Below are positions 1,302 to 6,041 of a DNA stretch of 64,000 nucleotides, in pieces. The position numbers were made by a program, and so were the translations under genes. The stretch lies in contig DUVP01000032.1 of the NCBI GenBank assembly GCA_012840975.1, positions 1 to 64,000 of the forward strand. The letters are read 5' to 3'. Positions within the stretch are counted from its first letter, which is position 1. Each line of letters opens with the position of its first letter. Origin of the DNA: Mogibacterium sp. GTDB taxonomy: Bacteria > Bacillota > Clostridia > Peptostreptococcales > Anaerovoracaceae. The notes below the pieces were generated by a model. That model ran no database searches and was not told the DNA's origin. It saw only the letters and a list, made by a program, of their open reading frames with translations.

Positions 1302-1356
1302 TTGTCGGTACTCCTTCTATGTATTTGAGACTTTATTATGTTTTACAGCACAATAA

Positions 1357-1382
1357 AACAGCCTCTACAAGTAGAGTCTGTT
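1357..1382 (-). terminator. Hairpin terminator downstream of the putative selenoprotein gene
   Basis: aaacagcctctacaagtagagtctgttt inverted repeat followed on the minus strand by TTATT. Confidence 0.45.
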
Positions 1383-1540
1383 TCGGTTAAAATTTTCAGA
1401 ACATGTCAAATGTTCGCATAATCTATAAAATGTCCAATCGTTTAAAATTATTACAACTCTGAAATAACTACCTTTGCTATTTTAACGCTAAGAGGATATC
1501 ATATCAACCCCTTTTTTGAACATATGTGCATAATATCCTA

Positions 1541-1858
1541 TTATATGCTGCATTGGACTTTAGGTGATACTCCGGTTACATTAAATGATTTGAACCATAG
1601 AAATTTGTTAAGGTATACTCTTATTACATCAGAATCAATCTGTAAATTTTTTGAAAGGAAGAGCTTCATTCCTTCTTCTGTTTCATATATCTCATAATTC
1701 TTGCTGATTGATTCTGCCATTGTTTCGGACACAACCCTTGTATCCACAGCCGTATAGGCACCTGTTCAGCAATAATTCTGATATGCAGTAAGAGCCACTC
1801 CGGCTGCTTCGTTTTCTTTTATATAATCTTTCAGTTTTTGTGAAAATACTATTCTCAT
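1541..1858 (-). CDS. Putative selenoprotein of the HesB-like / 'CC/Se motif' family, read through TGA (codon 31, 1766-1768) as Sec
   Basis: ATG at 1858 with AAGGAGG upstream; MRIVFSQKLKDYIKENEAAGVALTAYQNYC[U]TGAYTAVDTRVVSETMAESISKNYEIYETEEGMKLFLSKNLQIDSDVIRVYLNKFLWFKSFNVTGVSPKVQCSI; same frame on both sides of the TGA. Confidence 0.72.
1727..1745 (-). promoter_or_regulatory. Putative bacterial SECIS hairpin
   Basis: mRNA GGAUACAA-GGG-UUGUGUCC: 8 pairs (one G-U), GGG loop, loop begins 28 nt after the in-frame UGA. Confidence 0.65.
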
Positions 1859-2011
1859 TTGTGAGCCTCCTTTTATATGCATCAACATTCTTAAATATTA
1901 AAGAATGTCCTGTTTTTCTTGTTGGTTGTATTTTAACACTATTATTTTTTTCTATCTGTGACTAAGTCACCTATAAGGTTTATCTATATGCAATATATAT
2001 CTGTGAAACTT

Positions 2012-2078: not shown

Positions 2079-2888
2079 TTAAATAAATAAGAGTAAACTT
2101 AAGGCCATTACTGCCATTCCTGCAATAAGGCCGTATATGGAAAGATGGTGTTCTCCATACTCCCTTGCACTAGGAAGTAATCCGTCCAGACTGATATACA
2201 CCATAATACCTGCGACCGAGGCAAATATAAAACCGAATACCGTGTCATTAAAAAACCTGTGCAACAACAGATATCCGATAAGAGCGCCTGTCGGTTCGGA
2301 AAGTCCGGACAGGAAAGAAAGTTTAAAAGCTTTCCATCGATTCCCGGTAGCATAAAATATAGGCACGGCTACAGCTATCCCTTCCGGAATATTATGTATC
2401 GCTATCGCTACGGCGATAGATACCCCGAGTTTCGGATCATACAAAGCAGCTGTGAATGTAGCCATCCCCTCCGGAAAGTTATGTATTGCTATTGCAAGAG
2501 CCGTGACAAATCCCATGCGCATAAGATTTGTCTTGTGAGATTCGCTCTGTCCGTCCATCTCTTCGACCGTATGAACCTCATGTGGGTTTTCTACTTCAGG
2601 GACGAGCTTATCTATAAGAGCTATCAAAAGTATGCCGAAGAAAAAGCCTCCGACTGTAGCCCAGTTACCCATCCTTTCACCTAAATCTGCGACTAGCGCC
2701 TCCTGTGCTTTTTGAAATATATCCACAAAAGATATATAAATCATTACCCCTGCAGAAAATCCAAGTGCAACCGACAAAAACTTTTTATTCGTCCTGTTTG
2801 TAAGCAGTGCAAGAGCACTGCCTATACCTGTTGCAAGACCGGCAAACAAGGTAAGTGAAAATGCAAATATTACTGTTGAAGTCTCCAT
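2079..2888 (-). CDS. zupT: ZIP-family zinc transporter (ZupT-like)
   Basis: 269 aa, paired [10 protein letters not shown] and [10 protein letters not shown] motifs typical of ZupT. Confidence 0.92.
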
Positions 2889-2945
2889 ATTAAAATCTCT
2901 TTCTTTAATTTAAGCAACCCGTTAGAAAAGAAACGGGATTCTGCT

Positions 2946-5900
2946 TCATTTCCTTTTAAGGAATTCTTCCAATGCTGTCGGCGACAAAGGCTTTGAATAA
3001 TAGTATCCTTGTATTTCATCACAGTCCATACTTTTCAAAAAATCCGCCTGTTCCTTAGTTTCCACACCTTCTGCTGTAATATCCGCCATAAGATTTTTAG
3101 CTAACGAGATGATCGTTCTAACTATGAAAAATTTCTTCTTCTTTGAAAGAATATCATCTACAATGGTTTTGTCTATTTTTATTCTACTAAAAGGTACCAG
3201 CTCCAGGCGATGTAATGATGAATACCCCCTACCGAAATCATCGATAGCGATACTTATTCCCAATTCTTTTAATTTAAATAGTTTATCAATTGTATCCGTG
3301 AAGTTTTTAGACATCATCGTTTCTGTGATTTCAACCTCAATATATTTCGGTTCAACCTTGCTTTCTTCTAAAAGCCTTGAAAAATTGAAAATAAAATCAT
3401 TTCTTTGAAACTGCACAACTGATACGTTTATAGAAAAACGAAGAGGAGGCAATCCTTTTGCAATAAGTTCCTGATGCAGCTTAAGTGCTTGTTCCAATAC
3501 CCAGAACCCTACATCATGAATCAATCCGGTTTGCTCAAGTATCGGGATAAATATATCCGGTGATATTCTTTTTTTATTGTCATATTGCCATCTGAGCAGA
3601 GCCTCAACCCCAACAGTTTTTTCCGTTTTGCAACTAATCTGAGGCTGAAATTCCAGATAAAACTCATCATTCTCCATCGAATGAAAAAGCCTATTAGTAA
3701 GTAAGGTGTTTTCCGCAATACGACTTTTCAGTTGCTCCGAACAGAAAACAATCTTATTATCAGAATCTTTCGCTTCATATCCTGCCAAATCAGCATTCTT
3801 TAAAAGAGTATTTGCATCTATTCCATCATCCGGATATACGGCAATGCCTATAGCGGGACTAACAAATAACGCTTCTATTCTATCTTTTGGTAATATAGGA
3901 TCAGAAAAAGCATCGACGATTTTATTTGCACACTCCTCTATTTGCTCAATAGTTTCAGCAAGAGGCATAACAACAACAAACTTGCCTTCTCCAATCCTTG
4001 ATATATAACATCCTTTCTTCATCAGATTTTTAAGAATCGATGCCGATTCTATCACTATCTGCTCTCCTGTATTGTGTCCGAATGTATCGTTAATCATCCT
4101 TAGATTGTCTAATTCAACATCAAAAATCACCAGCTTTTCTGATTCTTTCCTGTTATATATTATTTCATCCAAGGTTTTTTTAAGCATATTCCTGTTAGCT
4201 AATTTTGTAGCTTCATCAAAATAAGCATAGTTGTATATCCTTTCTTCGTATAAGACTTTTTTTCTTGTGTCGCCAAGTATATTTGCAATAATTCTTAAAA
4301 AGTTTAATCGACTTTCTGTGAAATTTGTATCACTTTTCTCTATATATTCAACGATAAAAAATCCATACGGTTTTTCGCCTGCTGTTATTGGTAATGCATA
4401 GAAAGAGTTTATTCCCCTTGAAGCGAAAAAGTCTCTTTGGTTTTCAGCCTCGTTATCTAAAACATTCGTAACATCTTCACACAATATAGGCTGATTTTGA
4501 GTTATTAAAGGTTTAACTTCGGGAAAATCTGCTGTCTTAAACTTTGTTCCCGTATAAAAAGGATTTGTCGTAACATCAATATCTTTTATATACGTATTTA
4601 TAATCGTTGCGTTTTCATATTCTGCGTCGAACTCTAATAAATATGCACTGTCATAGTTGAGTATTCCGGCAGCCATTTCAAACATTTCACCGATTTTCTC
4701 TTTAGCATTTTCATTATTGATCGAAATAAATTTTGTTGAAATTTTTTCAAGTGTTTCCTGTTCTTTTGAAAATCTATGATACCCCCGCAGTTTTGAGTCA
4801 TATTCGTTCGTTAAATATCGCACAGCAACATATGAAAGTACAATAACAAAAATTCTTTTTAAATACTGAGAATTATCGATAGTAAAAGAAACGTTCGGAT
4901 AAATTATCCAAAGGAGAACTTGAGTTACCAGAGTTGCTCCCAAAAATAGAGCTGCATGGGTATCGCTATTAAGAACAACAGTATATAGAAGAAAAATTAT
5001 ATACACTGACCATACTGTTGCTCCTCCCACATTAATATCCTTAATTATGAAAAAAGTCATGCCCACTATGCTTGTTATCAGGAAGAGGGTATCCTGAATT
5101 TTATGTTTTTTTGTTATATGAGGTATAAATCTTAAAAATATACCAAGATTAATCACAAGGAAGGCAAGTAAAAGTTCACTTGCTATATTTTCTCCTCCAA
5201 TAAAATATCCTGAATAAAATGATGATGCTGCCCCGATTGCAAATATGGCTGCTGCTGTTTCAAACAAACGTAATCGATTTTCTTCTGATAAAATGACGGA
5301 GTCCGGAGATATAAATTCAACCTTTGTTCTTTCAATAAGAACACCAAACTTTCTCAATGTTATAAACAAAAAAATTGTTGGAAGAATTAAAAACAGAAGC
5401 GTAAGTTTAGGCATCTGCACGAACCCCAATATGCCGGGCAGAATATCCGTTATCGACCCCATTACAAATGGGAGAGTCATGGATATTAGAAAATATGTTA
5501 CATAACGCTTCAAGGGCGTATCAGGCCCAATTTTTTTCCACCAGCGAATAAGTAACATAAAAGTTATAACTGTATATGTAATATAATATATGTTAATCCA
5601 GATCTGTCCAATATTCGCAGAAAGTGAATTCCTCCATCCAAAGACGCTCGGCACCATTTCATATTGTTTCTCTGCAAGAAGTCCAAAAGGCGCAAACAGA
5701 ATTATATTTATCAAGGTGGGTAAATAAAGCATAATAAACATAATTCGATTATTTAATCGTTTTTCAGTTTTTGTCAGAATGAATGCAAAGTGAAGTAAAA
5801 AGCTGTGAAAAAAGCTCCAGCCAAAAACTGTCATACATCTCCAGAAAGCACTCGACTCTGCCGTTGGTGCTGAGTTTGAGATGGAATATGCAAATGACCA

Positions 5901-6041
5901 GATTGCCATTGAACTTGTTATTAACAGAAACAGTCTGTTGGTCTTGCTTTTTGCATTAGCAGCTACCGTATACGTACCAAAAACCATATAAAAAAAGCCG
6001 CAAATATAGTAAAAAGTTGATACCAGTAAACTATATTTCAT
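2946..6041 (-). CDS. 7TM sensor, GAF-like, degenerate GGDEF and intact EAL domain protein (c-di-GMP phosphodiesterase-like)
   Basis: 1031 aa; hydrophobic N-terminus; GEGKF at the GGDEF site; EALLRW, DDFGRGYSS, EGVET and QGYYYSKPL motifs of EAL. Confidence 0.88.
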   Translation of the reverse strand: MKYSLLVSTFYYICGFFYMVFGTYTVAANAKSKTNRLFLLITSSMAIWSFAYSISNSAPTAESSAFWRCMTVFGWSFFHSFLLHFAFILTKTEKRLNNRIMFIMLYLPTLINIILFAPFGLLAEKQYEMVPSVFGWRNSLSANIGQIWINIYYITYTVITFMLLIRWWKKIGPDTPLKRYVTYFLISMTLPFVMGSITDILPGILGFVQMPKLTLLFLILPTIFLFITLRKFGVLIERTKVEFISPDSVILSEENRLRLFETAAAIFAIGAASSFYSGYFIGGENIASELLLAFLVINLGIFLRFIPHITKKHKIQDTLFLITSIVGMTFFIIKDINVGGATVWSVYIIFLLYTVVLNSDTHAALFLGATLVTQVLLWIIYPNVSFTIDNSQYLKRIFVIVLSYVAVRYLTNEYDSKLRGYHRFSKEQETLEKISTKFISINNENAKEKIGEMFEMAAGILNYDSAYLLEFDAEYENATIINTYIKDIDVTTNPFYTGTKFKTADFPEVKPLITQNQPILCEDVTNVLDNEAENQRDFFASRGINSFYALPITAGEKPYGFFIVEYIEKSDTNFTESRLNFLRIIANILGDTRKKVLYEERIYNYAYFDEATKLANRNMLKKTLDEIIYNRKESEKLVIFDVELDNLRMINDTFGHNTGEQIVIESASILKNLMKKGCYISRIGEGKFVVVMPLAETIEQIEECANKIVDAFSDPILPKDRIEALFVSPAIGIAVYPDDGIDANTLLKNADLAGYEAKDSDNKIVFCSEQLKSRIAENTLLTNRLFHSMENDEFYLEFQPQISCKTEKTVGVEALLRWQYDNKKRISPDIFIPILEQTGLIHDVGFWVLEQALKLHQELIAKGLPPLRFSINVSVVQFQRNDFIFNFSRLLEESKVEPKYIEVEITETMMSKNFTDTIDKLFKLKELGISIAIDDFGRGYSSLHRLELVPFSRIKIDKTIVDDILSKKKKFFIVRTIISLAKNLMADITAEGVETKEQADFLKSMDCDEIQGYYYSKPLSPTALEEFLKRK

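Follow-up and report, generated by a model that had tools for sequence, protein, structure and literature searches.

A probable selenoprotein of Mogibacterium sp. related to the CC/Se motif family, with a predicted IscA/SufA fold

The gene and its flanking elements

The stretch of DNA analysed here (the window) comprises the first 64,000 nucleotides of contig DUVP01000032.1 from a Mogibacterium sp. assembly. For the minus-strand gene at 1858-1541 the computations covered the reading frame, the conservation of its TGA, the Sec machinery, a bSECIS-like hairpin and the resemblance to a protein family and to a known fold. The features of the locus are:

1541..1858, minus strand: putative selenoprotein gene of the CC/Se motif (NF041239-type), predicted IscA/HesB-like fold, 105 codons and a TAA stop
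1766..1768, minus strand: in-frame TGA, codon 31, most probably read as selenocysteine, with TGC (Cys30) directly before it
1727..1745, minus strand: bSECIS-like hairpin GGAUACAA-GGG-UUGUGUCC, 8-bp stem and GGG apical loop
1866..1874, minus strand: ribosome-binding site AAAAGGAGG, 7 nt upstream of ATG 1858
1951..1970, minus strand: conserved promoter-region element GTGACTTAGTCACAGATAGA with palindromic core GTGAC-TTA-GTCAC, kept in the sister species
1354..1385, minus strand: imperfect stem-loop followed by a T-rich tail, probable terminator, read from the alignment and kept in the sister species

The 105-codon frame is interrupted by a single TGA at codon 31 (1768-1766) and ends at the TAA of 1543-1541. 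With the TGA taken as U, the translation of 1858-1541 is MRIVFSQKLKDYIKENEAAGVALTAYQNYCUTGAYTAVDTRVVSETMAESISKNYEIYETEEGMKLFLSKNLQIDSDVIRVYLNKFLWFKSFNVTGVSPKVQCSI. The original prediction had extended the frame upstream of 1747 through this TGA to the ATG at 1858, with a strong ribosome-binding site at the start and a Cys codon ahead of the TGA; the translation agrees with this extension, and both the site and the Cys codon were located as listed above. The proposed product length of 105 residues stands as well, but the end quoted for it (...FNVTG) does not, nine more residues (VSPKVQCSI) being present. In the mechanical ORF list the gene is cut into ORFs of 40 and 68 residues, the latter starting from GTG 1747. 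Codon-usage scores of the read-through frame are above zero to either side of the TGA, at 0.42 and 0.26 bits/codon; in the remaining five frames the score is at most 0.07 bits/codon.

The same gene was found by whole-genome search in a species of the same genus (G045, hereafter the sister species) on contig JAAYIA010000052.1 of a Clostridiales MAG, with 78% protein identity, one internal TGA and the ribosome-binding site GAAAGGAG. The product has only the C30/U31 pair and C103 as Cys or Sec residues, and Cys103 is kept in the sister. In both genomes an M24 peptidase gene (creatinase/prolidase-type) lies downstream of the selenoprotein gene, and tRNA-Leu, DUF1292 and uvrC lie upstream of it. 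Between the gene and this upstream group the host window contains a gene for a ZIP-type metal transporter together with a second, large gene (2079-6041), both missing from this place in the sister; the large gene (2946-6041) reads as a GGDEF/EAL-type protein, as judged from the sequence without a domain search.

The element GTGACTTAGTCACAGATAGA overlaps a weak -35/-10 pair (GTGACT-18-AATAAT), and the block GTGACTTNNTCACAGATAGA, which lies ~90-115 nt ahead of the start, is conserved in both species. The palindromic element occurs in one copy only in each of the two genomes. This upstream block is consistent with a gene-specific promoter/operator. The stem-loop at 1354..1385, which was not detected by a strict scan, sits between the selenoprotein gene and the downstream peptidase gene; since the conserved stem-loop and T-rich tail separate the two genes, the selenoprotein gene is probably monocistronic.

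Conservation of the TGA and relation to NF041239

Codon comparison between host and sister gives a dN/dS of ~0.19 before the TGA (dN 0.19, dS 0.99) and ~0.12 after it (dN 0.13, dS 1.13), values which indicate that purifying selection acts on both sides of the TGA. The Cys codon preceding the TGA varies (TGC in the host, TGT in the sister) while the TGA itself is unchanged, and neither gene contains any further stop or frameshift.

The product aligns with the whole of the NCBIfam profile NF041239 (Moor_selen_rel; residues 1-97 to profile positions 1-91 of 91, E 7e-8), and Cys30-Sec31 falls on the aligned position of the Cys/Sec motif. The score of 32.4 bits lies below the curated cut-off of 40; as judged by the profile, the product is a divergent relative of NF041239 and not a member defined by the model. 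The CC/Se motif assignment made originally is thus borne out by a full-length match, though a sub-threshold one. The product resembles NF041239 in its equal length, in the place of the Sec/Cys motif and in a similar C-terminal strand pattern. It differs in the motif itself, C-U with TGAY behind it, for which the table of PMC13188914 gives CxxU in the family; it also has additional residues past the motif and ends in a conserved QCSI tail. The CC/Se motif family is listed among the known selenoprotein families in a 2026 review (PMC13188914). A Pfam search with the product gave no match at E up to 1.

Among 51 aligned family members the site is occupied by Sec in 37, by Cys in 12 and by neither in two, with Trp in none; these counts are approximate, as up to four positions on either side of the aligned column were counted as the site and the entries L028 and L073 are one gene. 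In the closest-subfamily set (n = 12; motifs SCUSGSY, TCUTGTY etc.) position 31 is an invariant column, with Sec in 11/12, the lone Cys form being L028 (SCC). Most relatives recovered by the search carry one internal TGA. The motif varies by branch (CU, UC, the CxxU-like CGGU, a lone GU), which makes the selenol the most constant element, while the partner Cys moves. The gene therefore shows two features by which a selenoprotein is recognized, namely an in-frame UGA conserved across species with coding sequence on both flanks, and homologs with Cys at the Sec position. The homologs could have lacked both Sec and Cys at this position; Sec (TGA) or Cys was found instead.

Selenocysteine machinery and decoding of UGA31

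A search of the host genome for the Sec machinery found selA (554 bits), selB (366 bits) and selD (360 bits), each above its curated cut-off, with selA adjoining selB on contig C29 and selD located on C5. The host SelD reads ...TTAGGUGSKIGPG..., with an in-frame UGA at the catalytic position; the organism thus already uses Sec, which serves as an internal control. The selC gene is partial. Directly ahead of selA, at the end of contig C29 (L058:10150-10291), there is a tRNA-Sec match; from the anticodon stem onward, CCA end included, its sequence agrees exactly with that of the sister's intact tRNA-Sec. The 5' half of the match, within ~70 nt of the contig end, consists of unrelated sequence. 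ARAGORN makes no selC call in the host genome because this half is disrupted, and the 81%-complete host assembly holds no intact selC. The sister genome contains an intact selC, likewise preceding selA, and since this copy is intact the disruption in the host is probably an assembly-edge artefact. The machinery looked up thus comprises selA, selB and selD over their cut-offs and the 3' part of selC beside selA.

The GGG loop of the hairpin begins 28 nt after the UGA, and the MFE of the hairpin region is -14.4. According to the published rules a bSECIS has a loop of 3-9 nt and a stem of 4-16 bp, is placed 16-37 nt from the UGA, carries a G within the first two loop bases and has an MFE of at most -7.5 (PMC13188914); the host hairpin lies within all these limits. 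It is kept in the sister, where one U-G pair is C-G. By chance 8-10% of the TGA triplets in the window pass the same rules, hence the hairpin is supportive and not decisive. The fold z-scores of the region are modest (-0.8 to -2.2), and an Rfam search of the gene region gave one chance-level match only.

The source is a MAG assembly and Cys forms exist in the family, so that the TGA might be thought a sequencing or assembly error for TGC or TGT in a gene whose true protein is the Cys form. Such an error is very unlikely, since the MAG of a separate species, at 78% protein identity and with many synonymous differences nearby, has TGA at the same codon; most relatives have the TGA too, and a second family gene of the host genome has TGA followed by Cys. 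Mechanical ORF calling yields exactly the two ORFs expected of a decaying pseudogene, or of a truncated 30-aa product accompanied by an unrelated 68-aa ORF from GTG 1747. Against both stand the low dN/dS and the coding-like codon usage on either side of the TGA, the lack of any additional stop or frameshift in either species and the family profile covering the two halves unbroken; at GTG 1747 no ribosome-binding site was noted when the sequence was read. Decay or truncation is accordingly hardly credible. UGA read-through is a generally known phenomenon, and the codon could be read by Trp reassignment or by a near-cognate tRNA, giving a residue other than Sec. The TGA codon terminates 5/43 long ORFs in the window, however, and since it ends ordinary genes the code is not reassigned; the Sec machinery is present in the host, and the site in relatives holds Cys or Sec, never Trp. 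The chance that the residue is anything other than Sec by this route appears minimal.

Decoding of UGA31 as Sec is strongly supported, and the actual insertion of the residue is inferred. The original prediction of a UGA decoded as selenocysteine agrees with the Sec machinery, the conserved TGA and the Sec/Cys homologs. Ribosomes would arrive at UGA31, where SelB, in complex with both Sec-tRNA(Sec) and the hairpin a short way downstream, would place selenocysteine; translation would then proceed to the TAA, giving the 105-aa product. The gene at 1858-1541 on the minus strand is very probably a selenoprotein gene with SelB- and hairpin-directed Sec at UGA31, encoding a divergent NF041239 member of predicted IscA/SufA fold.

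Predicted fold, possible function and related genes

The AF2 model of the product has a mean pLDDT of 91.8. The top seven Foldseek matches in the PDB all belong to IscA, SufA or HI1723 (probability 0.98-1.00, TM about 0.4-0.57), with no credible match besides these, so the structural similarity expected of the IscA/HesB superfamily is found. The resemblance to IscA is of moderate strength (TM 0.53-0.57, E about 1e-3). In the model strands 20-30 and 33-43 are joined by a tight turn that carries Cys30-Sec31. In a profile-profile alignment (probability 26%) the GCSG site of E. coli IscA is paired with Cys30-Sec31 and its Cys99 with Cys103, the Sec site being weakly aligned with Cys35. The product is thus predicted to take the IscA/SufA (HesB) fold, with Sec31 where IscA has its first cluster-ligand Cys. 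A sequence search of the PDB with the family profile gave no match at E up to 1.

The original description of the protein as HesB-like holds for the fold and for weak matches of some other family members to IscA/HesB models, 2/25 aligned relatives weakly matching TIGR01911. It does not hold for membership in the TIGR01911 family of HesB-like selenoproteins. The motif of these proteins is UxGP (PMC13188914). TIGR01911 resembles the product as a small Sec protein of the same predicted superfamily fold, but the product does not match this model at E up to 1 and reads CUTG in place of UxGP, which excludes membership.

It is possible, though rather doubtful, that the product is a true A-type iron-sulfur carrier of IscA/ErpA function with Sec in place of one cluster ligand. 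The IscA/SufA/ErpA group (PF01521) supplies the best fold matches, the profile alignment places Cys30-Sec31 and Cys103 on ligand positions of IscA, and the host genome yielded no gene with PF01521. On the other hand PF01521 does not match the product, the profile-profile probability is low, most relatives miss any C-terminal Cys, and the three Cys ligands of IscA (C35, C99, C101) are not all present. As the product lacks the C-terminal CGC ligand pair of IscA, a standard A-type carrier role is unlikely. Most likely the selenoprotein is a small cytosolic selenol/thiol protein, which may perform redox chemistry or bind soft metal or Fe-S at Sec31-Cys30, possibly with Cys103.

The host genome contains a second gene of the same superfamily with an in-frame TGA (L091:3708-4397, minus strand, G000:C10; motif TTUCDPP). 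It has a C-terminal DUF7674 fusion (PF24722, E 1.7e-7) and its own bSECIS-like hairpin with the loop GUU. Orthologous N-terminal parts are found in G247 and G210, joined to another C-terminus with weak winged-helix similarity. Approximately six related paralogs stand in tandem at L092:1213-3889 (G211:C88); the TGA is present in two of them (RUCGS, RCUSG), and several have neither Sec nor Cys at the site. A three-copy paralog array occurs in L093 (G123:C20). As a tentative suggestion, which we regard as improbable at present, the CC/Se proteins of this lineage may be unrecognized, diversifying HesB-fold selenol sensors or scavengers, occurring as stand-alone proteins, as DUF7674 or winged-helix-like fusions, and as tandem arrays partly without Sec or Cys.

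The selenoprotein family itself is already known, and the gene described here is a new divergent member of it, below the curated threshold. The curated NF041239 model misses its sub-branch, and annotation pipelines based on the cut-off would give a truncated 40-aa ORF and a 68-aa ORF in place of the 105-aa protein. The gene adds a divergent and currently mis-called member to a functionally uncharacterized selenoprotein family, to which the structure prediction would assign the IscA/HesB fold, with Sec in the position of the first cluster ligand.
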